From Isoetes taiwanensis (lineage: Eukaryota > Streptophyta > Lycopodiopsida > Isoetales > Isoetaceae), in the NCBI GenBank assembly GCA_021234155.1, contig JAJEKV010000072.1:2664436-2728435 (forward strand): 64,000 bases of DNA. Reading direction: 5' to 3'. The notes beneath the pieces are model-generated. The model saw nothing but the letters and a program-made list of their open reading frames with translations. It was not told the DNA's origin and did not search any database. Made by a program: the position numbers and the translations under genes. Within the stretch, counting starts at the first letter, position 1; the number at the start of each line of letters is the position of its first letter. Below, piece after piece: positions 39,644-63,618 of the stretch.

Positions 39644-40221
39644 TGTTAGAAATAAGCAGTGAATAGAACCAATATCATGTAACAATGTTAGATTTTCTTG
39701 GATTGATAATCATCTATGTGTAAGAAACACCTCAATCTAATAGCATAAGATGATTTTACATTCAACTCAACAAAAAACCAATTGTATAACACTAGCCAAG
39801 TCACTTCTTCAACTTATCATTAACATTGGCAATTATGACCATTGTAAATAATCTTAGCATTACTGTTCATATGAGATCAATGAGGATACTGTAGCTTCAA
39901 ACTTCAAATAGGTCATTCAATTTCAAATCGATTCATACCTGCTTCACGATTGCTCCTGCTAATTTCCAATGAATGCTCAACCTCTGTATTACATCTTTAT
40001 TTATCTTTGCAGTCCGACGGTCAAGCCAGGCCGCCGATTGGCTCTTCATGTCTTCGTCATCTTGAATCGATTCATTTGAACCTAAATTGGCTCCATTGAC
40101 AAAAGTGCTTTAGGTGCTCAAACTTCTTAGGTGCTTTAGGTGCTTTTAGGTGCTATCTCAACTTTGTCACCGAATTTCCTTGAATATTTTTCCCATCTCA
40201 ATTATGGCATGAATTCTAACA
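39644..40221 (-). repeat. copia 3' LTR (left copy)
   Basis: 578 bp, TGTTAGAAAT...AATTCTAACA. It includes repeated TTAGGTGCTTT units near 40105-40160 (TTAGGTGC several times in a row), which differ in number from the right LTR. Confidence 0.93.
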
Positions 40222-44039: not shown

Positions 44040-44044
44040 CACTC

Positions 44045-45706
44045 GTGATCGTTCGGGACGAAGATAGGTCCCATGACGATATCTTTATCGCCGCAAATCA
44101 CGCATACACGCCCACCGACCGACGCACGCTTAACGTGTAGCCAGGTGGGTAGCCCTAGGGGGCAACGTGCCAGGAATATGTGCAACTATTAATGTGCACA
44201 TTTTCCAATGTACACATTAATGTGGGCACACATTTCCATGTGGACACTTGATGCCAAGTGGGCCACACCCATAGGTGCAATTAATGTGCACATTTTCCAA
44301 TGTACACATTAATGTGGGCACACATTTCCATGTGGGCACATTTTGCCACCTAGCCATTAAAGGCAAGTGGGCCCATTTCCAATTATCCCACATGCCTAAA
44401 GGGGATAATTGGAAACCCTAGCCACCCCCTTGTCTATTAAGGGAGGGAAACCCTAACTTGCCCAATTTTCGTTTCTAGGGTTTTGGAACCCTGTTTTGGC
44501 TGCCTCAACAGCCAAAACCGCCTCCCAGACTCTGCCTGAGAGAATTGCACCATTAGTTTCCCTCGATTCGAGCGTTTCAGCAGGATGGTCGAGCTCAGGT
44601 CAGGAGGAGCCACTCAAGGATCAGGTATTTGGCCAATTAGATAGTCTAAACCCTAATTCAGTCATAGAATCAGTAGGTTTAGCCTATTAAATTGCCCATA
44701 GCAGCCTTCTAGATCTTTAGATACCAGCCTCTAACTAAAGAACCTAACTCTATGATGTAGATTAGATATAGTTCTTTAGTTCTTCTGTGATGTATATGGA
44801 TGATGTATCTCTATGAACTCCTTGTATTGGGAAGGGGGGTAGAGACCTAAAGCTTGGTAGTAGATGCTCCTAGAGTAGCCTCTCTAGCACACTATAGATT
44901 CGGCCTGTGTACAAGAACCACACCTGGTTGTGGGTGAAGGGGCCAGACTGGCTAAGAAGGAGGTTCGTGTCCTGACTCTTGAACGATCCCTCTGGTGTGT
45001 AAGGCCTACCAGGGATCATTGTGACTAGGTCTAATGGCTCACCACTGAGTGCGGGTGAGGCATGGACTCGACACCCGTGAAGTGGTGTACACCTTCCAGT
45101 GGGTTCAGTCGAATACGGGCAGTGGCCCTCTAGTCACCTTGAGTCAGCATGTAGATCTCTGGAGGGAGTGATCCCTTCCTGCCCCATCGGAACTGGGAGG
45201 ATGAAACCCAGGAATAGCCCTTTTGGCTATGCATCCGGCGGGCTACAGTCAGGTCCCGACACTTTTCAGCCTACTCTGCAAAGTGTGCACAGGAGGGGCG
45301 GATGGAGTGGACAACCCTATGCCATGTTCATATGCCAGCCAAATCCATTGCCATGAATTCTGTCCGCAAGGAACTCTGGAGACCCAAGCCGTCAGTCATC
45401 CCCATGAGTCTGAGCCTTGGGTAGAACTCCCCATATGTATTGTGCTCACCTTGTTTATGCAGATAGGATGGACCACCCTTCGAGGTGGATATGTGCTTAT
45501 GTTATATACTGACATGTATGTTTACGCTTCCGCAGCTAGGTAGGCCCTGAGGGAGACGGGGTAAAATGACCCCTTCACTCTTCCCACTGGAACCATCCAC
45601 GGTAAAAAATGTTATGTGGAGGGCCCTCAGACGGCATGGAGCTGGTATGGGGATGAACTCCTGTTTGTATACGGTGAGCGCTTGATATGCAGTAGGGGAC
45701 GTCACA
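44045..45706 (+). repeat. gypsy 5' LTR
   Basis: Ends GGGGACGTCACA. It holds a tandem ~88-bp block (ATTAATGTGCACATTTTCCAAT...ACATTTCCATGTGG) at about 44190-44345, also present in the 3' LTR. The first ~60 bp differ strongly from the 3' LTR while the rest is nearly identical. Confidence 0.9.
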
Positions 45707-45707
45707 G

Positions 45708-45719
45708 TGGTATCAGAGT
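45708..45719 (+). promoter_or_regulatory. gypsy primer-binding site (initiator tRNA-Met)
   Basis: TGGTATCAGAGT lies one base after the LTR end. It matches the plant initiator-tRNA-Met 3' complement TGGTATCAGAGC at 11 of 12 positions. Confidence 0.88.
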
Positions 45720-45912
45720 AATGTTCTTGGGGACCAAGAGCAAAGCACTGGCCATGTCCCCAGTAGTACTAACCTTGATAGGATCCTTAAACCTCGAAAA
45801 ATGGGAAAAATTTTTCTCATTTTTGTAGTTTATGCTAAGCTAGTAACAGTTAAAATGAATGAAAACATAAAAAGATTAAGAATTGGTGAGCCAACATCCA
45901 AAAAGTAGGGTG

Positions 45913-45979
45913 GTCTCACGTCGCGGGGCCAGACGTAAAATGAGAATTTCATTTTCGGGCTGGGCGCAACGTGTGAGAC
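45913..45979. repeat. 67-bp hairpin module H1
   Basis: GTCTCACGTCGCGGGGCC pairs with GGCGCAACGTGTGAGAC, and an inner AAAATGAGAA/TTTCATTTT pair extends the stem. This is the first of four modules with the same outer arms and identical length. It is the most diverged at its left arm. Confidence 0.8.
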
Positions 45980-46113
45980 ATTCAGCTTAAACACACCAAA
46001 AAGTTGTAAATTACAGTAAAATAGCTTGATAATTCTAAATTAGAGCTAAGAATCAGTAGAATTAGCAAGTTACATAATTAAAAAGTAGCAAAATTGATAG
46101 TGGACCCCACCAT

Positions 46114-46180
46114 GTCTCACACGTCGCGCCAGGACAGAAAATGGGCTTTTCATTTTCGGGCTGGGCGCAACGTGTGAGAC
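46114..46180. repeat. 67-bp hairpin module H2
   Basis: GTCTCACACGTCGCGCC at the left and GGGCGCAACGTGTGAGAC at the right are near-perfect inverted arms, with an inner GAAAATG...CATTTTC pair. It lies 255 bp upstream of the H3-like start. Confidence 0.85.
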
Positions 46181-46257
46181 CTTGCTTAGATTAAGGTGTT
46201 TTAGGTGCTCTAGATAACCTAAAAAGGTAGTTTCAAGTTTGACCTAAAAATTGCCCC

Positions 46258-46266
46258 TATAAATAG
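46258..46266 (+). promoter_or_regulatory. TATA box upstream of the H3-like ORF
   Basis: TATAAATAG lies 111 bp before the ATG at 46369. The following leader (ACCCTGCTTAG...GCTCTC...AAGGCGATCTT) resembles the leader after the second TATA box at 48217, so both cassettes appear to have the same internal Pol II promoter. Confidence 0.6.
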
Positions 46267-46368: not shown

Positions 46369-47625
46369 ATGGCCCGGACGAAACAAACGCTAGAAAGCCT
46401 CGGCCAAGCACATCCTCCGCCCGGTGACCCCGCCCGATTCAAAGGGCACTTCGCGAACGCCTTCTCAATCAGGGGGAATCTTCATCAAGCGAGGGGACAG
46501 ACTCGGACCGGAGCGATCAGACGGAGATCATAGAGGAGGAGCGCCCGGACATCATGCAGCAAATCCTCGAAGAGATCGCCGAGGAGGAAAGGAGAAGCAG
46601 GGAGGAACGGGAGCAGAGGGGACAGCCGACTGTCGAACAACACCGTGCCGGGCTTGGGCCCGTCTGCAAGAGGAGGAGGAGAGACAGGAGCAGCAGCCGC
46701 CAAAGCTTACCCCTGCTGAAGAAGCAGACCTCGCGGCCTTCATCAGTAAGTATGAAGACAAGGAGCGCCGCCGGGAGCAGAGGACGAAGAACCGGGAAGA
46801 CGGTCCAACCATAGCCGGGGCCTTAAGAAGAGGAAGGCCAAGGGCACAAGGCGGGCGGAAGAAAAGTTGTGAAGGTCGGGAAGCGAAGCGGTAGGGCCCG
46901 GCCATCAATCTAACCATCAGGCTAAGAGAGACCCCGCCCTTCGACGACATTCGGACGCAGGATTACGCCCCAACCCGCAGGGGGCGAAGCTCTTCAAAAC
47001 CCCCGCCAGAGAAGGAGGTACCCGAAAGCGTGTGGCGCGCCGATGGGCGCAGCCCGACAGCCGCAGGTTCCCCACCATTCCCCGACGTGGGACAGAGTCA
47101 AAGCCCCGCCGCCGCAACGGAAAGCTTTATGTGATAGACCCCGTGAAAAGGTCTATCGAAGAGGATCAAGGAGCACAACGCTTACATGGCGGCGGGAGGC
47201 CTACAATGCCTATTACCGAGGAGCATGTGGTGAGAACAATCAAAGGCGACATCCGGACAAGAAGCCAAACCTTGAAGCCGCCACAACCCAGGCCCAAGCC
47301 TCCCCGAGCACTAGGGAAGAAGCGAAGCAAGAAGAAGAAGTCGGAGGATAGAGCTCTCAAGGAGATCCGGCACTTCCAGAAGAGTTACGGACTCTTGATC
47401 TCTGGGGCGCCGCTCCAACGCTTTGGTCCGCGGAAGTCATGCAGAGTACAACACGGACATGCGAAAGTAACCGACGAGATGTCATTGCTTGCGCAGGAGG
47501 CGCCGGAGGCAAAAATAGTGCAGCATTTTGAAGATTCGACGGCCTGCACAGTACACGCGAAGAGGGTTACCCTCATGAGGCAGGATATGTATCTTGCCAG
47601 GCACATCAAGGGAGAACGCCCTTGA
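46369..47625 (+). pseudogene. retrotransposon-encoded histone H3-like protein
   Basis: The ATG at 46369 opens MARTKQT, identical to the start of histone H3. A single missing base after codon 7 moves to the frame reading ARK next, as in H3. That frame continues from 46392 through one TGA (46425) into an acidic segment (SSSSEGTDSDRSDQTEIIEE, IMQQILEEIAEEERRSREER). A second charged segment (LTPAEEADLAAFISKYEDKE) and a Lys/Arg/Pro-rich segment follow. 47350-47622 is then uninterrupted and reads ALKEIRHFQKSYGLLI, APLQR, QEAPEAKIVQHFED and HAKRVTLM, ending IKGERP. This is the H3 histone fold from the alpha-N helix to the C-terminus. Of the last 34 residues, 19 match plant H3 by my alignment. The positions equivalent to H3 C110, H113, R116, D123 and L126 (the H3-H3 interface) are kept. 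Total span is about 419 codons against 135 in H3, because a ~300-residue insert separates tail from fold. Loop 1 has canonical H3 length, unlike CENH3. Confidence 0.85.
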
Positions 47626-47770
47626 GATTTTTGTAAATAACAGAAATTTTTGTTAATATAAAGAATTTTGTGGATAAATAATGTGTCTAATCTAGCTTAA
47701 TTAAGTTAAGATATAGAATTCTAGCTTTTGTTTTGATAAAATTGGAGTTTTTGAGCAAAATTGAGACGAT

Positions 47771-47837
47771 GTCTCACACGTCGCGCCAGGACAGAAAATG
47801 AGATTCTCATTTTCGGGCTGGGCGCAACGTGTGAGAC
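47771..47837. repeat. 67-bp hairpin module H3
   Basis: Same outer arms as H2 and the most complete inner stem (GAAAATGAGA / TCTCATTTTC). It lies 146 bp after the H3-like stop codon. Confidence 0.88.
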
Positions 47838-47969
47838 CATGCCCAAAAGTGCCCAAAACTGCTCCAAATCGACCAAATAAGGGGTCAATTCTGCCTAACT
47901 CGACGAGTTTAGTGGAATTACAGCCTTAAATTGCCCAAATTGATTAAGTTTAGCCCATTTAGGACCCAT

Positions 47970-48036
47970 GTCTCACACGTCGCGCCAGGGCAGATAATGA
48001 ACTTCTCAAAATCGGTCTGGGCGCAACGTGTGAGAC
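47970..48036. repeat. 67-bp hairpin module H4
   Basis: Outer arms are intact (GTCTCACACGTCGCGCC / GGGCGCAACGTGTGAGAC). The inner stem has decayed (GATAATGAACTTCTCAAAATC). Conservation of arms over the loop suggests that the stem is the constrained part. Confidence 0.85.
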
Positions 48037-48216
48037 CTCGCACCATTTTCTTCACCAAATGACCTCCAGTTTGCTGCAATAGGTTCATTAGTTGTTCTTA
48101 GCATGCTTTAAACCAAAAATCAGCCTTCAAACCCTCAATTGCACCTCCTAATAGGTCAGAATCGCCCAACTCCAGCAAATTCTAGGTCATCCAAAAATTA
48201 GGGTTTTTCCCTTTTC

Positions 48217-48225
48217 TATAAATAG
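48217..48225 (+). promoter_or_regulatory. TATA box upstream of the acidic ORF
   Basis: TATAAATAG lies 122 bp before the ATG at 48339. It is followed by CACCCTGCAAG...GCTCTCC...CTTAGGCGATCTT, parallel to the leader of the H3-like cassette. Confidence 0.6.
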
Positions 48226-48338: not shown

Positions 48339-49865
48339 ATGGCCACTGCTGACTTCAGGCGATGGTACAACGCTAGTGCCCATGCTGCTGAAGCAGATGT
48401 CGATGACATCTTCCGCGTCTTCGGGAAGGAAATTGATATCCAAGCTACGCTGAATGCAACCCCAGCATATAGGCAAGTATTAGCAGAGTTCCAAGCTAGG
48501 GTAGAACCCTCCCTTGTCCGTGTTCCCCCGCGATAGGATACTTTGTTCCCCGCCAATCCTTCAAGCAGCCTTTGGGTGATGTCCCCAACATCGCCAAGTA
48601 CTTAACCAACAAAGCGCCAGAGGGTTACCGACTACATGGTCCTGACAGCTAACAGGACCAAGTACTTCTCCTACACCGCTGCTTTAGCCATTTTCTTATC
48701 CCACCGTGCCGAAAACCCAATGGGGGCAACCTCTATTCCTCCAATGGAGGTGGATCCCATAGCAGTACAGGAAGAAGAGCAGATGTTTTTGCAGTATCAG
48801 CAAGAGCAGGAAGGAGAAGATGATGAAGAAGAGGAGTCCGACGACGATAAGTACACGGAGCTCGACTCAGAGGAGGAACGGCAACAAGCAGAACAGGAGA
48901 TGATGAACTTCGAGCAGAACTGGCAGAACATCAGAGTTGCTCCCCCACTCGGGCTAGGCATCACAAGCCTAGCCCCAATTATCATCAACGGAGAGGAGTA
49001 TTTGCTCCTCAACGACATCCAGAACCTTCCCGAGTGCAGGGAGAGGGAGCTCAGATTGGACGAATTACTCCACCAACTGCGGCAGACCGACATGGACGAC
49101 TTCATCGTCCGGGGAGTCTCAGACTTCCCGCTTCAAGTCAGGGAAGCCGACACCTACACAGGGGAAGCGACTTCCGACATCCAGGCATACAGCAGCATAA
49201 GGCAGGTCATGGAGACCGGAGACCTGCCATCTGAAGAAGAGTTCCTCGCCATTCAGGAACGGATGGGGATCAGAGGCAAGACCACTAGCATCCTGATGCC
49301 GAGTCCCTCAACACCACCCCCAACAAGAGGAGCAGGAATTGACCTCAGGAGAGTCGACTCCACAATTGAAGATTATCGGGAGCTCACAGAGATCGAGGTC
49401 GACGATTATGCAGGGCGGCATAGAGCAGGGGGTCAAACAAGCGGGGAATCATCCGCGACGCACAACGACAGGTCGCTGAGGTACTACCTGCCACTGCTGC
49501 TAGACGGGAGAATAGCGGTGGTACACCGCAAATTCAGCCCCAGGGGCGAGGAAGGAGTGTTCATGCTGATTGCACTCTCAGGCTTCGGCAGGCATGCTCG
49601 AATAGCAGCAAATGTCGACTATGCTGTCCTAGTCAAGAGAGCAATGGCACTCGATCTCTTCGACTTCGCCATACCTCATCGACGGCAGGCGAGATTAGCG
49701 GTGGCCGCGGCCCTCACATCCGACCGCAGAGTGGAGGACTTGACGAGAGCCTTGCAGGGCGGCTCGTCAGCAAGCGTCTTCAGGAACTTGGGTCATACAG
49801 TAGGAACGGCCCAAGTTAAGAAGTTCCTTGAGGACAACCCGTCGTACCGGCAATTTCAAGATTAG
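48339..49865 (+). CDS. acidic element-encoded protein of unknown family, ~508 codons
   Basis: Starts MATADFRRWYNASAHAAEAD. It continues in the same frame to TAG at 48536, then resumes in that frame from 48636 to 49865. The intervening ~100 bp are open in another frame (FVPRQSFKQPLGDVPNIAKY), so two compensating single-base changes probably interrupt one protein. A strongly acidic stretch (EEEQMFLQ ... GEDDEEEESDDDKYTELDSE, about 48770-48890) is followed by a Leu-rich region and a C-terminal helical region (AVLVKRAMALDLFDFAIPHR). I recognise no domain. Acidic tracts of this kind occur in histone chaperones, and the gene sits directly after a histone-like gene, so a chaperone-like role is possible but only inferred. 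It is not gag, which is found downstream. Confidence 0.7.
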
Positions 49866-50223
49866 TTAGACTCTTGATCCCGGAGACTTTTTGTACTAAA
49901 ATATTATATAATATATGAATATAATCTCTGTTGCACTTTAAATGTTTTGTTGATGTATTTTTGCCCCACAACTATACCAACAAACATAAACAATGCAAGA
50001 GAACAAGAAAAACTAACCATATAGCCATGAATTACTTGTGTATGCGCTAGAGGCCTAGGCTCGGGGAACGACAACGCCAAGACCTTAGGGAAGAAAGAAC
50101 CGACCAGCACCACCCCCGCAAGGAACCTATTTGAAGATATGGAACCCATGACCCCGTGAGGAGGAGATATCCCGTGATGAGGACGGACCTTGAGAAGATA
50201 AAGGCTCATAGTCGCGACAAGCT

Positions 50224-50960
50224 GTGAGCTGGTTCGGTGGGCAATGCTCAATTGCCACAAGCATCAGCTCGGAAAACAGGAAGAGACAAGAAGAGGAGCA
50301 AGAGAAGAAGATCCCCCAGCTCGGACTCCTCCGACTCAAGCTCAGAGTCGACCGACCGGAGGAAGAAGAAGATCAGGCCCAGGACCTAACGACGCGAAGG
50401 CAAAGGAACACCAAGAGGGAAGGCAGAGGAACACCCCGTGATGGACGACAAAGAGACACCCGTGGTTTCGATCACCGTAAGAAAGTAGATTCCGCTGGGC
50501 AAATGTATGGAAGGCCCTGAATCGAACAGCTTCGGGGAGAACACGGTGTCGATTAGAAGCAGAGGCATGGCTGGACTAAATGAGTGAGTACGGCAATGCT
50601 TATGGCATGAAGGATAAAGACAAAGGAAGAGTGGCAACAGCCAACTTGAAAGGAGCCGCACGGATTTGGTGGAAGGGTTATGCAAAGGCACATGGCTTAA
50701 GCAGGATGCTTGTAAGTTCGTAAAGTTTGCTAAAGCCTTCAAGCGCCATTACGCCCCGAGGGAACATAAGTCCAAAGATGATGCAAATAGCTTCTACAAG
50801 TTGAAAAGAAAGGCAACAAATCGGTCCAGAATATACAGAGGAATTCATGAGACCGAGGTCAGATGTGCCAAAGTTGGGTGAGAAGCATGCGGTAGAAAGC
50901 TATATTGAGGGGTGAATGAGGAGATCCGCAGTAGTTTTGTGAGGGCAATAAACCCTAAGA
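50224..50960 (+). pseudogene. gypsy gag, frameshifted
   Basis: An SR/charged N-terminal segment (KRRRSPSSDSSDSSSESTDR, about 50310) precedes a retrotransposon-gag core. The core reads VATANLKGAARIWWKGYAKA (about 50630), KFVKFAKAFKRHYAPREH (about 50715), FYKLKRKATNRSRIY and then EKHAVESYIEG (about 50885). Several frame changes break it. The true start is not obvious; 50040-50220 is already Arg/Pro-rich. Confidence 0.65.
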
Positions 50961-51019
50961 CAAGATCGTAAGCGTGAGTCCAAGGCTATAAGCTTGCAAG
51001 GGACGGACCTCTAATAGCT

Positions 51020-51960
51020 GGCAGAGGCAGCAAAGATTTCCGTGACAAAGGCAAGGCGACAGAAGCTATAGCCCTAGGGCAGCCAGTTGTGTCCAAATTT
51101 AGAGCCCCATATGGTGGCAAACTGTGGGAAACAAAGAGGGAGAAGAAAGTGTGTCCTTCAAGGACAAGCAGAGGGGTCAAACTACTCCAAAGCAAAGGCG
51201 ATCCGCTTTGCAAAAGCGATGCCCAAGGAAAAAGAGACAGGAGTGCATAGAAAAGCAGCCTTTTGCTTCGTGTGCTTCCAGCCAAAGCTATAGAACAAAT
51301 GAACCCGCCTTTACGCCATGAGTGCAGCTTAGCGGAGTTGGGAGATTGGGACATCCCGGCCCGGACGACGACGGGGCGAGGAAGGCCGCTGACTACATTG
51401 TGGTGAGGTCATATCTTTGCCGCAATAGATACAGAGCAAAAGCAGAGAGCCAAGATAAAGTAATCTCCACAAGAGGGAAGGCCAAGGCCAAGTCCTTCAT
51501 AGTCTTGATAGACTCCTGAAGTAGCCATAACTTTGCATCCCCGTAATGGTTCAAATGTTGAAGTTGAAACCGCTAAAGTCAAGCCAAGGCCCGTTGTCTT
51601 AGCAAGTGGTGCAAAGAAGGCGCACGGCGTGCAAGAGAATTAACTTCGACATCGACTTGCCGTGGATTAATATTTAGATGGGGGCAGAAGTAATGGGCAT
51701 TGGCAAGTACGACTTGATCATAGGAATGGAGTACCTTGGACCAGCAGGGCCATTATCGATTGTGGAAAGTTTTAAGGTGACCTTCCCAACACCCGACGGC
51801 AAGATCATCGAGATCACTGTGTAAAGAAGTTGTTCCCATCATGCGCTGCATGACTTCTAAGCGGCCGCTCAAGTGCATCAAGATTTAACAGTGGCATACA
51901 TCTTCAAGCTTGAGATTGACGAGCCTGAAACAGAGGAAAGCAAAGAAGATTGTGGTGCTC
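51020..51960 (+). pseudogene. gypsy nucleocapsid/protease region, decayed
   Basis: RKAAFCFVCFQPKL (about 51255) may be a remnant zinc-finger region. KSFIVLIDS followed by a TGA and SSHNFASP (about 51490-51530) is the aspartic protease active site with the glycine codon of D-S-G turned into a stop. YDLIIGMEYL (about 51710) and FPTPDGKIIEIT mark the protease end. Confidence 0.6.
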
Positions 51961-52001
51961 GCAAGTTGCCGGGCAAATAGCTCACCTGATCACGGAGTTC
52001 C

Positions 52002-53560
52002 ATGATCTCTTTCCGTGACGAGATCAAGATCAAGCTTCCGCCTTATAGGGGAGTCGAGTGTGAGATAGCACTCGAACCGGGAGCAAAGCCGGCAAGCAAG
52101 GCTCCATACAGAATGACGACGCAGGAGTTGACGGAGCTAAAGAAGCAATTGCAGGAGTTGCTCGACCTAGGCTTCATTAGACCTAGTGTCTCGCCATTTG
52201 GAGCGCCCATTCTCTTTGTAAAGAAGAAGGATGGCAGTTTAAGGATGTGCATAGACTATAGGCAGTTGAACAAGCATACCATTAAGAACAAATATGCGCT
52301 CCCCAGATCAGATGACTTGATGGATCAACTCCAAGGTGCAAGGGTCTTCTCCAAAATCGACTTAAGGTCAGGTTATCATCAGATCAGGATAAAGGAAGAA
52401 GATATCCATAAGACCGCCTTCTAACGGTATGGGCATTATGAGTTCACGGTAATGCCTTTCGGCTTATCGGTCGCCCCCGCGACGTTCATGAGGCTCATGA
52501 ACGACATCTTCAGGGAGTTTTTAGACACCTTTGTGATTGTATTCTTTGATGACATTCTCGGTGTATAGCAGATCCCTTTGAAGAGCACGCATAACACTTA
52601 AGGAGAGTGCTAGAGAAGTTGAAGAGGCACCGTTGTACGCCAAGTTGTCGGCGTCACTTCAAGAATCCGAGAAGGTGGAATACCTTGGTCATGTGATCTC
52701 GCCAGAAGGAATCTCGACGGATCCCCGCCAAGATTGAAGCCGCCATTCGCTGGGTCGGCGCCAAAAGAATGTGCATGAAGTCAGAAGTTTTCGGCTTAGC
52801 AGGGTAGTACCACAGAAGTTCGTGGGAAGAACTTCGCTAAGATAGCGCCCCGCTAACGCATTTGACGAGGGCGGAGAAAGTGAAAGATTGGGCAGAGCAT
52901 TGGCACAAGAAAGCCCAAGCAGGGTTTGAATTATTGAAGGAAGCTTTAACAACCGCCCCAGTCTTAACCCTGCCGGACCCAGAGAAAGACAAGCTTGTAG
53001 CGACAGACGCAAGTAAGATAGCTACAGTGCAAAGGTTTCATGCAAGAAGAGCGCGGTGGTAGCGTGATGATTCCGTGAAGATGAACGACGCCGAAACGCG
53101 CTACCCCACCCACGATCAGGAATTGCTTGCGGTTGTCATGGCATTAAGAATTTGGAGGCACTATCTTTTGGGAAGGAAGTTCCAGTTGGATACAGACCAT
53201 CGAGCCTCCAAGATATATTCACGCGAACCACACCTCAACCCGAGGCGAGAAGGTGGATGGAGTTCCTTGAAGAGTATGACTTTGTTATAGTCTACAAGCC
53301 GTGGAAGCTCAATGTGGTAGCGGATGCTTTCAAGGCATCCCCGACACCTAGAGTGCATTGCAATGCAATTTCGACGCCTCCAAATGACTTTGGTAAGAAG
53401 GTTGAAGAGTCCTTGCCAACGGATGTGGATTTCAAGGAAGTATGGGCAAGCTCTCTAAGGAGGCTAGAACAGATAAGGAGCGGGAAGCCTTTAAACATTA
53501 TAAGAAGGAAGGCAACCCGTTATACCATAAGAACAAGTTGTAGCGCACCGAATCATCGTG
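52002..53560 (+). pseudogene. gypsy reverse transcriptase and RNase H
   Basis: An intact 140-residue frame covers the RT fingers and palm: [59 protein letters not shown] and [17 protein letters not shown]. After a stop it continues [20 protein letters not shown] and VIVFFDDIL (the catalytic DD, with FF where FI or YV is usual). RNase H follows: LTLPDPEKDKLVATDASK (about 52970), ETRYPTHDQELLAVVMALRI and HYLLGRKFQLDTDH (about 53160-53200), then FVIVYKPWKLNVVADAF. Multiple frame changes show this copy is not functional as read. Confidence 0.85.
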
Positions 53561-54430
53561 TGTAAGGAAATTGATCCTCCATGACACGCGACAACAGCCC
53601 AATAGCTGGCCATGCGGGATTCATGAAAACATATTTCAAAAGCAGCAGCCTATTATTGGCCAGGAATGAAGAAGCAAGTAGCTCGCTACATCAAGGAATG
53701 CCAGCTATGTCGCCAGACAAAGGCGAATGAACAGCGGAATTCCGTGGGCCTTAGAGCCATTAGCTGTGCCAAACGCTAAGTGGGAGGTGATCAGCATGGA
53801 TTTCATCATGTGACTCCCAAGGACCATAAGAGGGAAAGATGCTTTGATGGTAGTAGTTCCATAAGTTGTCGAAAATGGCACATTTTGTGCCTTGCGTGAC
53901 CACGATACGGGTTATGGATACAAATAAGCTCTTCACCAAAGAGATCTTCGTGCTTCATGGCATGCCAAGGGAGATTATTCCCGACATGGGGATCCGGTTC
54001 ATGAGCCTTTTGGCAAGACCTCTTTGCGTAACCATTCAGACAAAGCTATCCATGAGCACGCATATCATCCTCGACGGATGGCCAAACGGAGCGGACCAAC
54101 AGATTTTAGAAGACATGCTACTAAACTATGTCCGAATAAGCAAGGTATGTGGGAAGAATTTATTCACTTGGTGGAGTTTGCATACAATAGCACCAAGCAG
54201 AATCATCCCAAATGTCGCCATTTATGATCAATTACGGCTATCGGTGTCTAACTCCGCACACTTGGCACAACCCCCGTCAAAAGTGGAAGTTTCAAGTAGC
54301 AGATGTTGGCCGATATGCAGCAGCTTTTGTGGAAGAAGTTCGAGGGTATTTGCTAGCAGCAAGAAGTCGATTGTAAGAGCATCGGCCGACAAGCATCGAA
54401 CAAAGAAGAGAGTTCAAAGTTGGAGATGAT
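53561..54430 (+). pseudogene. gypsy integrase core, decayed
   Basis: The HHCC region is scrambled by frame changes (AGHAGFMKTYF at about 53610; a Cys pair at about 53700). WEVISMDFIM (about 53790) holds the first catalytic Asp. SKMAHFVPC and MPREIIPDMGIRFMS (about 53990) hold the second Asp. ILEDMLLNYVRI (about 54105), preceded by a broken HPxTDGQxER segment, marks the third (Glu) region. Confidence 0.75.
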
Positions 54431-54940
54431 GTTTGGCTCAAGATCAAGGTGAAGCAGCGAAGCTCGGAATCGGAATTGCAAGAAGCTTGCTCCAAGGTGG
54501 GTCGGACCTTCAGAATAGTCAAGAGAGTAGGTAATCAATCCTACAAGCTAGACTTGCCAAAGACACCTAAAGATTCATAAGGTCTTCCACGTGAGTTTGT
54601 TGAAGAAGCACACTCCAAATCCGCATTTAAGTCTTTGGACTCTCCAACGTTGTTGGAAATGACGGAGGAGCAACCTGGAAATAGTTCCGAATTGATTCTT
54701 GATAAAGCTTTCAAGAAAACGAGGAGATCAGTAATTCCTCCAAGATTTGGTCAAGTGGAAACACTTACGCTGGAAGACGACATACGGGTACTTAAGAAAG
54801 ATTTAGTGAAGCAAAGTACCCACAGCTTTATAGAGCAATGGGACGGCAAGGTCATCTTCAAGAAATCGCCCGTGCATGTTGATTTGTGTAGATTAATTCT
54901 ATGTATAGTTAAGATTAATTCACGATGCAACCTATGCTAG
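54431..54940 (+). pseudogene. gypsy integrase C-terminus with chromodomain-like tail
   Basis: Readings: DDVWLKIKVKQR, KLAP/CSKVG.. and RVGNQSYKLDLPKTPK (about 54410-54570), then VFHVSLLKKHTPNP. The tail at 54635-54940 reads SPTLLEMTEEQPGNSSELIL, DKAFKKTRRSVIPPRFGQVE and LEDDIRVLKKDLVKQ. This is comparable in position and pattern to the chromodomain of chromoviruses, but the aromatic cage cannot be confirmed. The older gypsy copy at 58.5-58.8 kb keeps a clearer version of the same region. Confidence 0.5.
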
Positions 54941-55737: not shown

Positions 55738-55750
55738 AAGGTGGGGAGAA
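55738..55750 (+). promoter_or_regulatory. gypsy polypurine tract
   Basis: AAGGTGGGGAGAA immediately precedes the LTR start TGTGACG. An identical 12-mer lies at 55698-55709, so there are two candidate plus-strand primers. Confidence 0.8.
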
Positions 55751-57415
55751 TGTGACGTTACAGGACAGTATACGGTCCCAGGACGTATACTGTACTGCCT
55801 CGTCACGCGTACACGCCACTCCGACTGACGTGCACGCTAACGTGTAGCCAGGTGGGTAGCCCTAGGGGGCAACGTGCCAGGAATATGTGCAACTATTAAT
55901 GTGCACATTTTCCAATATACACATTAATGTGGGCACACATTTCCATGTGGACACTTGATGCCAAGTGGGCCACACCCATAGGTGCAATTAATGTGCACAT
56001 TTTCCAATGTACACATTAATGTGGGCACACATTTCCATGTGGGCACATTTTGCCACCTAGCCATTAAAGGCAAGTGGGCCCATTTCCAATTATCCCACAT
56101 GCCTAAAGGGGATAATTGGAAACCCTAGCCACCCCCTTGTCTATTAAGGGAGGGAAACCCTAACTTGCCCAATTTTCATTTCTAGGGTTTTGAACCCTCG
56201 CTTTGGCTGCCTCAACACCAAAACCGCCCCCGCATCGCCCGAGAGAATTGCACCATTAGTTTCCCCGATTCGAAAAGCTTCCAGCCAGGATGGTCGAGCT
56301 CAGTCGAGGAGCCACTCAAGGATCAGGTATTTGGTTAATTAGATAGTCTAAACCCTAATTCAGTCCATAGAATCAAAGAGGTTTAGCCTATTAAATTGCC
56401 CATAGCAGCCTTCTAGATCTTTAGATACCAGCCTCTAACTAAAGAACCTAACTCTATGATGTAGATTAGATATAGTTCTTTAGTTCTTCTGTGATGTATA
56501 TGGATGATGTATCTCTATGAACTCCTTGTATTGGGAAGGGGGTAGAGACCTAAAGCTTGGTAGTAGATGCTCATAGAGTAGCCTCTCTAGCACACTATAG
56601 ATTCGCCTGTGGTACAAGAACCACACCTGGTTGTGGGTGAAGGGGCCAGACTGGCTAAGAAGGAGGTTCGTGTCCTGACTCTTGAACGATCCCTCTGGTG
56701 TGTAAGGCCTATCAGGGATCATTGTGACTAGGTCTAATGGCTCACCACCGAAAAGTGCGGGTGAGGCATGGACTGACACCGAAGCGGAAGTGGTGTACAC
56801 CTTCCAGTGGGTTTAGAATCACGGGCAAAGTGGCCCTCTAGTCACCTTGAGTCAAGATGTAGATCTCTGGAGGGAGTGATCCCTTCCTGCCCCATCGGAA
56901 CTGGGAGGATGAAACCCAGGAATAGCCCTTTTGGCTATGCATCCGGCGGGCTACAGTCAGGTCCCGACACTTTTCAGCCTACTCGCAAAGTGTGCAATGT
57001 GAGGGGCGGATGGAGTGGACAACCCTATGCCATGTTCATATGCCACCCAAATCCATTGCCATGAATTTCGTCCCCAAGGAACGAACTCGAGACCCAAGCC
57101 GCCGGGCCATCCCCATGAGTCTGAGCCTTGGGTAGAACTCCCCATATGTATTGTGCTCACCTTGTTTATGCAGATAGGATGGACCACCCTTCGAGGTGGA
57201 TATGTGCTTATGTTATATACTGACATGTATGTTTACGCTTCCGCAGCTAGGTAGGCCCTGAGGGAGACGGGGTAAAATGACCCCTTCACTCTTCCCACTG
57301 GAACCAGTCACGGTTGCAGTGTTATGTGGAGGGCCCTGTATCGGCATGGAGCTGGTATGGGGGATGAACTCCTGTTATACGGTGAGTGCGCCGTATACGA
57401 GTAGGGGACGTCACA
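55751..57415 (+). repeat. gypsy 3' LTR
   Basis: TGTGACGTTACAGG...GGGGACGTCACA, 1665 bp. It has the same internal tandem block as the 5' LTR. Most differences from the 5' copy are small clustered indels and swaps, many near CG dinucleotides. Confidence 0.93.
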
Positions 57416-57904
57416 CACTCCTGCTCCCTCTAAGTCAGCAATGATATTGTCAAAGGTTTGAAAAAACTCATTGACATTGTCTTTATCATGAAACCTTAGC
57501 CTTCTCATTTCATTTTCAAGCACATCGATTTGTGAGGAGGTTTTCTCCTCATAATTAAGGAGCATATAACTCCACATCTCGCTAGGATGCAATCCTCTTA
57601 TAATTAATGAGTTTACCTTACTCATTATAATCCCTTGAGCCTCTCTTAGTTTTGCCACATCTACTGTGCCTCCTCCTTTTGTTGCTTTGGTGCTAGCTTC
57701 TGCCTCAGCTCCTTTTACTGAGCTCGAGCTTCCTTCAGCAGCAACCTCAGAGAATCTGCTCTTAGGTTCAACAATATCCCATAGCCCTTCTACTTGCAAT
57801 ACATGCTTGATCTTTTCTTTCCAAACTTGGAATCCTGAATCCCCCTTGAAGACATCAATGGCACTCAACAGGCCTGCACCAAATCTGCTTGCCATTTGTC
57901 TCAA
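57416..57904 (-). pseudogene. copia gag N-terminal half
   Basis: The minus frame begins MRQMASRFGAGLLSAIDVF and reads GFQVWKEKIKHVLQVEGLWD and LREAQGIIMSKVNSLIIRGL, typical of copia Gag (UBN2-type). It runs to ADLEGAGV, where the gypsy element interrupts it. It resumes at 44039 as YSQQQQVLAISRSV. This part is intact. Confidence 0.85.
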
Positions 57905-57921: not shown

Positions 57922-58495
57922 TGTTAGAAATAAGCAGTGAATAGAACCAATATCATGTAACAATGTTAGATTTTCTTGGATTGATAATCATCTATGTGTA
58001 AGAAACACCTCAATCTAATAGCATAAGATGATTTTACATTCAACTCAACAAAAAACCAATTGTATAACACTAGCCAAGTCACTTCTTCAACTTATCATTA
58101 ACATTGGCAATTATGACCATTGGAAATAATCTTAGCATTACTGTTCATATGAGATCGATGAGGATACTGTAACTTCAAACTTCAAATAGGTCATTCAATT
58201 TCAAATCGATTCATACCTGCTTCACGATTGCTCCTGCTAATTTCCAATGAATGCTCAACCTCTGTATTACATCTTTATTTATCTTTGCAGTCCGACGGTC
58301 AAGCCAGACCGCCGATTGGCTCTTCATGTCTTCGTCATACTGAATCGATTCATTTGAACCGAAATTGGCTCCATTGACAGGTGCTTTAGGTGCTCAAACT
58401 TCTTAGGTGCTTTAGGTGCTTTAGGTGCTATCTCAACTTTGTCACCGAATTTCCTTGAATATTTTCCCATCTCAATTATGGCATGAATTCTAACA
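57922..58495 (-). repeat. copia 5' LTR (right copy)
   Basis: 574 bp, TGTTAGAAAT...AATTCTAACA on the + strand. It is followed by the target duplication CTTTT. Confidence 0.93.
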
Positions 58496-62481: not shown

Positions 62482-63618
62482 ATCATCTGCAAAATGGCTA
62501 TCGCTCCCGGGGGGAGGGAGGGGAGGGAGGGAGAGAATCTTCATTTAGCTATGGAGAGGGGGATTCTTGGTATGTGCATTGCATACATCTTGCATTTTGA
62601 GACTGCAATCATTAGATCTCAACTTTTCTTGCGAGGCTTGGAGTTAGGCTATGCATCAATGTTTTATTCCTGCTCCTCAGATGTTTGAAGCTCTCTGTGA
62701 CAAAAAAATGATCAGAGGTCTTCAAGAAGTTCTCTCATTTCTATGCTAATAAAACATGTATTTCCATTCTCTGCTCTATTAGACTTGTCCTTATGCTTCT
62801 GCAATATTTCTTCCATGCCGAGCACTAAAGATTTCTTCAGGCCAATTCCCATAAAGTCATGGTATCAAGTATTCTATTGTCTTGAAGTAGCAATTTGAAT
62901 TGATTGTCAAAACAGGACTTTGAACTATGATTTAAGCCACTTCACCCTCCGGCCATGGAGGGCAACCCTCCATGCGCAGCACCTTGTTTATTTTCCAGGC
63001 ACCACAACCATCTAACTCTGGCCATTTCCTTTCTTGTTTTTCCTTTTTCGATTTTATTTGCCAGACACGTCATTGGATGATTCTTTTGTGTCTCTAGGTA
63101 TGATTATGCTTCTAGATATGATGTTAAGTAGAAGTTTCTACAAATAAGGAATTTGGCTATTGCTCTAATGCCCATCTCGCGGTTTCATTTATGCTTCCCA
63201 CTTGAATTCAATCTTGTTTTCTTATAAGCATCAACCAGATGATCCTATGCTTCTCTAATATCAAGTTAGGTCCTTCAAAACTGCTTCTTGTTGTTACTGA
63301 CCATTACGCTCGGATGTCTTTATATCAAATGTGCTCAAAGAGCCTTAGAAGGTCCATGCACATTATCCTCTATGTGCATATCCTCATCTACATTTTCTTT
63401 TATGGAAAGCTCCTTGTAATAAAGAAAAATAGAATTATGGCATAACACAAAGACAAGGCATATTCACTGTAATGCTAGCAGCCTCAAAATGCAAAATGTA
63501 TGCAATGCACATACCAAGAATCCCCCTCTCCATAGCTAAATGAAGATATCTCTCTCCCCCCCCCCCCCTCCCCAAAAAAAAAAAAAAAGGGAGCGATAGC
63601 CATTTTGCAGACGATGAA
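62482..63618. repeat. inverted-repeat pair, arms ~125-140 bp, ~870 bp apart
   Basis: 62482-62606 and 63478-63618 are reverse complements: ATC(A/G)TCTGCAAAATGGCTATCGCTCCC, then a G-rich or poly-A/poly-C tract, then CTTCATTTAGCTATGGAGAG, GGGGATTCTTGGTATGTGCA and TTGCATACAT. The same frame (MERGILGMCIAYILHFE) is open in both arms. The arms differ mainly in the homopolymer tract. The interval between contains a perfect hairpin, CATGGAGGG-CAA-CCCTCCATG (62954-62974), and no recognised gene. Confidence 0.8.

Follow-up and report, generated by a model that had tools for sequence, protein, structure and literature searches.

The H3-bearing element and its setting

The window, by which is meant the whole 64,000-nucleotide stretch of Isoetes taiwanensis DNA analysed here, contains a Ty3/gypsy retrotransposon that carries an H3-like gene and a second accessory gene, ORF2 (Table 1). 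The element has the LTR pair, target-site duplication, primer binding site and polypurine tract of a Ty3/gypsy element, and the primer binding site is one that we take to be of tRNA-Met type. Pieces of relatives' elements have the order protease, reverse transcriptase and integrase, their pol parts comprising CCHC, protease, reverse transcriptase, integrase and chromodomain sequences; a chromodomain was not recognised in the window piece 54581-54937. The H3-bearing gypsy element sits inside a copia element of the opposite strand. The outer copia LTR pair has only 8 mismatches and 3 gaps in 578 nt, and it diverges less than the LTRs of the inner, younger gypsy insert. The window also holds an inverted repeat (62537-62614 and 63470-63547), with 78-nt arms that are 95% complementary and 855 nt apart.

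Table 1. Features of the H3-bearing gypsy element and its surroundings, in window coordinates
Feature	Position	Strand	Remarks
Outer copia LTRs	39644-40221 and 57922-58495	-	
Left target-site duplication CACTC	44040-44044	.	
5' LTR	44045-45706	+	1.66 kb; 3' end GACGTCACA
Primer binding site TGGTATCAGAG	45708-45718	+	
Two hairpins upstream of the H3 ORF	45908-45984, 46109-46185	+	fold z -4.0 and -6.5
TATAAATAG box	46258-46266	+	111 nt before the H3 ATG
H3-like gene, frame-broken	46369-47625	+	tail, long acidic/basic insert, H3 fold
H3 fold	47353-47625	+	90 codons and stop
Two more hairpin copies upstream of ORF2	47766-47842, 47965-48041	+	fold z -7.9 and -6.5
TATAAATAG box before ORF2	48217-48225	+	
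ORF2, second accessory gene	48339-49865	+	open 48606-49865
gag and protease region, broken	50200-51600	+	co-linear with relatives
Reverse transcriptase piece	51990-52424	+	PF00078 E=9.8e-12
Integrase region, broken	53000-54500	+	relatives: rve, then chromodomain further 3'
Purine tract	at 55740		
3' LTR	55752-57415	+	start approximate
Right target-site duplication CACTC	57416-57420	.	5-bp duplication

The initial annotation had described a unit beginning MARTKQT within an LTR-bounded element, between the primer binding site and gag. MARTKQT is indeed encoded at 46369, the LTR pair and its CACTC duplication were found, and the unit does lie between primer binding site and gag; it is not, however, the gene directly before gag, as ORF2 intervenes. 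The ORF2 protein (P0126) is about 500 aa long with an acidic stretch, and a Pfam search with it gave no match. The protein search returned one relative, of 501 aa and 46% identity on a 2-kb contig, and the predicted structure is poor (mean pLDDT 38).

Each accessory gene is preceded by two hairpins of the sequence GTCTCACACGTCGCGCC...GGCGCAACGTGTGAGAC, and the leaders of the H3 unit and of ORF2 share AGGCGATCTT. The conserved 3' hairpin arm occurs four times in the window, in every case at the H3 or ORF2 module. Among 30 H3-selected loci, the window copy included, the downstream hairpin is present in all 30 and the upstream hairpin in 22, while TATAAATA is found upstream in 25 and downstream in 24. 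From these modules we infer candidate internal promoters before the H3 gene and before ORF2. The four 77-nt hairpins have ACGT cores and are possible bZIP sites or RNA structures.

Architecture of the H3-like protein

In the window copy the frame is lost directly after MARTKQT and again inside the insert. The 3' part (46873-47625) is open for 250 codons and matches the Pfam Histone profile PF00125 with E=5.2e-14, and the last 90 codons of the unit match it on their own (E=3.8e-12). The best PDB matches of the window fold are histone H3 (E ~2e-15), co-linear from ALKEIR to GER. The proposed C-terminal H3 fold is thereby borne out, and the outcome named beforehand as fatal to it, a profile search without a significant histone match, did not occur. 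The garbled middle of the window fold is not typical of the family, seven intact relatives reading LVR-E/K-VMQEYNTDMRVTDEMLLCLQ. The H3-H3 interface residues C110, H113, R116, D123 and L126, said to be kept, are so in the three relatives compared.

Intact copies encode MARTKQTARK, an insert of ~315-340 residues and then a full H3 fold, in total ~415-440 aa. Their order is MARTKQTARKP..., an acidic stretch, a basic stretch, an acidic/proline stretch and the fold, so that the initial picture of both H3 ends separated by an acidic and basic insert was correct in plan, its figure of ~300 residues falling a little below the length in intact copies. The intact relative L039 matches PF00125 with E=3.6e-27. 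ARTKQTARK is exact in six of the seven intact copies, and the seventh reads ARTKQTTRK. A continuous 135-residue H3 with a K18/K23/K27/K36 tail was not found, the insert replacing the tail after about residue 10. At the level of predicted sequence, the gene thus encodes an H3-like protein with the first ten residues of H3 and the full H3 fold. With canonical H3 and its variants this protein shares the first ten residues, the fold and the dimer-face residues; it differs in the ~315-340-residue insert that stands for most of the tail after K9, in its substituted fold and in being borne by an element. Single-chain structure prediction of one such protein (A3) is poor, with a mean pLDDT of 49.

Such a composition could suit packaging, in which the basic and acidic protein would condense element nucleic acid and the H3 fold would act as a dimerising DNA-binding module outside host nucleosomes. 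The long acidic and basic insert and the kept dimer-face residues are consistent with such a role, yet it does not account for the conservation of the first ten residues, the part of H3 that is recognised most, and we regard it as improbable.

The fold of the window lineage is identical to H3 at 49-50 of 91 positions. Entry into nucleosomes is not assured, because the sampled fold agrees with canonical H3 at only 50/91 positions and carries R63P. Another candidate reading is the capture of a centromeric H3 that would place the element in centromeres. LIP-x-APF and RVTLM of the fold are found in CENH3 too, and its identity to Quercus CENH3 (49/91) is about the same as that to H3 (50/91). Against this, loop 1 is of canonical length, without the extra residue of the two CENH3 proteins compared, the tail is of H3 type (ARTKQTARK) and not of CENH3 type, and in the tree fold type B stands as a group apart. 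A CENH3-type capture is very improbable on these grounds, and CENH3 identity was rejected on loop 1 length and the H3-type tail.

Related proteins and other H3 sequences

A protein search recovered P0002, a protein of 424 aa with the same plan as the element's H3-like protein. When P0002 served as the query, 4,730 proteins passed out of 8,000 scored, and among the 120 matches listed 116 come from ENA contigs. Both ends are present in 56 of 125 proteins under a strict filter. In 20 hand-picked aligned relatives, the first ten residues are invariant but for R2, which varies in one protein, and much of the fold shows no variation either. Three folds of this ENA family, whose members are known from protein sequence alone, are 76-79/91 identical to H3, in contrast to 49-50/91 in the window lineage, and an HMM of the family matches the window only within the fold. 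Six H3 loci (L001-L006) lie in contigs filed under bacterial bins and are probably eukaryote contamination. Scans of viral contigs and a comparison with Rfam yielded nothing further.

The host genome holds a second class of H3 folds, whose aligned part is 71-87% identical to that of canonical H3. By our own count, 46 of the 150 rows of the search that gave this class belong to frames of 400 aa or longer, one of which contains a TAG. The exact decapeptide was found 0.6-1.8 kb upstream in none of the nine on fully listed contigs.

Copies in the genome and element layout

The genome searched comprises 1,658,258,908 bases in 1,110 contigs. A query with the 90-aa fold gave 7,692 first-look candidates, and all 150 that were scored have E below 1e-32. 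The search for other intact copies that the initial annotation had proposed was productive: 39 of the 150 belong to open frames of 400 aa or longer, one of which contains a TAG (counted by eye). Ten plus-strand copies, chosen for long frames and H3 similarity, were each read as two pieces. In every one of the ten the H3 ORF, ORF2, gag and reverse transcriptase follow one another as in the window; integrase was matched in nine, the 5' LTR in nine and the 3' LTR in eight.

A second set was assembled to offset this selection for H3 similarity and long frames. An integrase-chromodomain query gave 24,021 candidates, of which 150 were scored and 20 elements taken in order of rank; the query and one copy that was known before were passed over. 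H3 sequence stands at the expected place in 12 of the 15 readable sites, two of the 12 being partial (L059 is cut by the stretch and L065 has the insert only). The eight stretches without an H3 match divide into five that are unreadable at the site, as L060, L063 and L064 contain no element sequence and L062 and L071 end before it, and three without a complete gene, namely L066, L073 and L078, which reach the ORF2 side without an H3 gene, L073 keeping 38 nt. The shared layout in 10/10 copies and the occupied place in 12/15 sites uphold the proposal that the gypsy element encodes the H3-like protein as a gene of its own.

A chromodomain (PF00385) was recognised in two of the pol pieces scanned, L052 (E=1.8e-10) and L058 (E=3e-7). 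The L052 domain (P0127) keeps W45 and has no aromatics at the places of Y24 and Y48, as read by eye, and judged by these residues it is of group II type. Group II chromodomains lack those aromatics, and the factor with which they interact is not known, according to the part of the source available to us (PMC3350952). The element resembles plant chromoviruses of this group in its LTRs, primer binding site, gag, protease, reverse transcriptase, integrase and a chromodomain without the two cage aromatics; it differs from them in two extra genes before gag, one of them H3, each with a hairpin/TATA module.

Selection on tail, insert and fold

The dN/dS comparison across copies that had been suggested at the outset gave 0.02-0.06 in fold and tail. 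In seven intact copies, picked for H3 similarity and long frames, dN/dS is 0.019 in the tail (11 codons), 0.178 in the insert and 0.020 in the fold, with dS of 0.5-0.6. In the integrase-selected set it is 0.049 in the tail (5 copies) and 0.059 in the fold (9 copies), and the insert, taken in three parts, gives 0.31, 0.37 and 0.21 (5, 7 and 9 copies). Left out of these main values were L059 (cut), L065 (no fold) and L070 (frame-broken); with all three included the fold value is 0.103. Among the nine folds kept, L061, L068 and L074 lack one or two residues in the alignment. Because dS is near saturation (1.21 for the fold), the integrase-selected values are rough in size, but they are clear in order. 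For reverse transcriptase, integrase and ORF2, values of 0.50, 0.37 and 0.41 were obtained, which are inflated by frame breaks and do not form a fair comparison. Judged from these codon substitutions, tail and fold are under purifying selection and the insert is freer to vary.

A one-off insertion of a host H3 pseudogene is ruled out by the many open frames, the layout shared by 10/10 copies and the purifying selection. The gene is the element's own and not a stray pseudogene, because it is found in many copies, in a shared layout and with low dN/dS. A related account is passenger transduplication, in which the element would have picked up a host H3 gene and would carry it as neutral cargo, as fungal hAT elements do. 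Capture of H3 by hAT elements is indeed known in fungi, as described in the part of that study available to us (PMC6710886). Neutral carriage sits poorly, however, with dN/dS of 0.02-0.06 in fold and tail, and of 0.10 in the fold even with frame-broken copies, with the promoter-like module common to the H3 gene and ORF2 and with the great divergence from host-type H3 (fold 50/91). We consider it extremely improbable.

LTR divergence and assembly quality

The LTR pair of the window element differs in 116 of 1,589 columns, and the differences are grouped in 29 clusters. Identical runs reach 260 nt, against a maximum of 150 in 2,000 shuffles. Seventeen of the 29 clusters lie at most 6 nt from a CG, where the mean expected is 9.5 and 6 of 2,000 random draws were as high. 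Six further LTR pairs are patchy too, by appearance and without statistics. Nanopore reads corrected with Illumina data underlie the published Isoetes taiwanensis assembly, which amounts to 1658.30 Mb in 204 scaffolds and 909 contigs, as given in the part of the paper available to us (PMC8566536). The outer copia LTRs, expected to be older, differ little, and consensus errors of a nanopore assembly are likely. Whether decay is the sole cause of the frame breaks is uncertain. Since the LTR differences are tightly clustered and near CG, like local consensus errors, frame breaks in this assembly need careful reading.

The MARTKQTARK tail across the genome and position 9

MARTKQTARK, in any coding, occurs at 1,051 places in the genome and its reversed control at none, which argues against chance. 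The 86 of these places that were listed use 48 synonymous codings of the decapeptide, and approximately 15 of the places belong to the host's normal H3 genes (97-99% over full length). When codon 4 may vary and K9 is kept constant, 1,060 starts are obtained, of which 1,051 have K4; K4 is thus nearly fixed in otherwise intact starts, as freeing its codon adds so few. Three starts of the same coding on one strand (C217:120970, 126779 and 132560) lie ~5.8 kb apart and may form a tandem array. The exact tail is present in 14 of the 30 H3-selected loci, and on fully listed contigs it accompanies 2 of 11 scored folds and 2 of 11 integrases.

Position 9 behaves differently in the genome-wide count. 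When codon 9 is left free, 1,888 starts are found, 1,051 with lysine and 837 without. Unexpectedly, 753 starts have T as the second base of codon 9 and would encode a hydrophobic residue (Ile 314, Met 80 and, by subtraction, Val/Leu/Phe 359); these are known as coordinates alone. A further 48 have C as the second base, and 36 others remain by subtraction. The only hydrophobic-9 start noticed beside a scored H3 fold is an Ile start at C112:590397-590426, ~950 nt upstream of a fold at C112:589179-589445 that is itself frame-broken. In each of the 22 distinct element copies for which the nine-codon start was read, position 9 is lysine, and the hydrophobic-9 class would therefore belong to copies not seen in full.

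Discussion

Our results establish that a chromovirus-type Ty3/gypsy LTR retrotransposon encodes an H3-like protein as its own conserved gene. The K4 and K9 machinery acts on the ARTKQTARK part of H3, both as reader and as writer, and K9 methylation is a means of silencing in plants. The reading that we favour is a nucleosome-entering H3 decoy that disturbs K9-based silencing, a mechanism to which, on sequence evidence, we give somewhat less than an even chance (about 0.45). The H3-like protein would be made from the putative internal promoter, enter the nucleus, pair with H4 and enter nucleosomes, on which the insert would form a long arm. Its tail would then be a decoy for the K4/K9 machinery and may blunt K9-methylation silencing of the element.

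The starts with a hydrophobic residue at position 9 allow a more specific version of this decoy. K-to-M/I substitutions trap SET methyltransferases, and the hydrophobic-9 starts, if they are element genes, would resemble such a trap. The element lineage might then encode K9-to-hydrophobic H3 variants (Ile, Met, Val/Leu/Phe) that poison H3K9 methyltransferases within nucleosomes, while relatives that keep K9 may be of use to the chromodomain integrase which the element itself encodes. As a whole this two-part proposal is doubtful. A putative mixed system, in which K9 and K9-less copies would have different roles, fits the counts best.

The K9-bearing copies also fit a role in targeting, in which a K9-methylated element H3 would dock the element's own integrase chromodomain and so steer integration or tether the pre-integration complex. 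The same family encodes a chromodomain integrase, ARTKQTARK is present in all 22 distinct copies with the start read, and MAGGY, a fungal element, has a chromodomain that binds H3K9me2/3, as reported in the accessible part of that work (PMC3350952). Set against this are the missing aromatics at the Y24 and Y48 places of chromodomain P0127 and the share of genome-wide starts in which position 9 is not lysine, which make docking unlikely as the function of the protein. We rank the anti-silencing decoy first, docking second and packaging third, because the tail is conserved and the hydrophobic residues at position 9 recall K-to-M/I traps.

Selfish elements that encode histones are known among viruses, such as the H4 of bracoviruses and the histones of giant viruses. 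The likeness lies in a core histone that could enter host chromatin; the elements, the hosts and the histone are different. In fungal hAT elements, too, a mobile element multiplies H3-derived sequence. Many of the 26 hAT H3 copies of Pyrenophora tritici-repentis may be functional, while those of Pseudocercospora fijiensis are mostly truncated and all but the original are RIP-inactivated, as far as the available part of the study describes (PMC6710886). These are DNA transposons, whereas the protein described here has been remodelled by a long insert and shows conservation from one element copy to another; the terminal inverted repeats and transposase of hAT elements were not found in the window element, which has LTRs and reverse transcriptase instead. 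Orchid Ty3/gypsy elements with an AlkB m6A demethylase are likewise a lineage of plant gypsy elements in which a regulatory domain of the host has become fixed within an additional ORF, there an RNA demethylase instead of a histone and in another host, to judge from the portion of the paper available (PMC9289625). The same source reports a screen of 121 angiosperm genomes with 15 unusual domains in LTR elements, histone domains not being among them in that portion (PMC9289625), and the word histone is absent from the main text of a review on additional ORFs of plant LTR elements (PMC7264820). Among the titles and abstract openings listed from the open-access literature none reports an LTR retrotransposon with a histone gene, and as far as these listings go the original statement, that no described plant LTR retrotransposon with such a gene was known to its author, still holds.

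Transposons are silenced through H3 marks, and a conserved H3 made by an element would directly attack or use that system. The K9-to-hydrophobic variants, if true, would be a self-made counterpart of K-to-M oncohistones, evolved for silencing escape. With its natural variants the element would be a means of studying the silencing of plant repeats by K9 methylation, and it has a bearing on the marks or factors read by the chromodomain integrases of plants.
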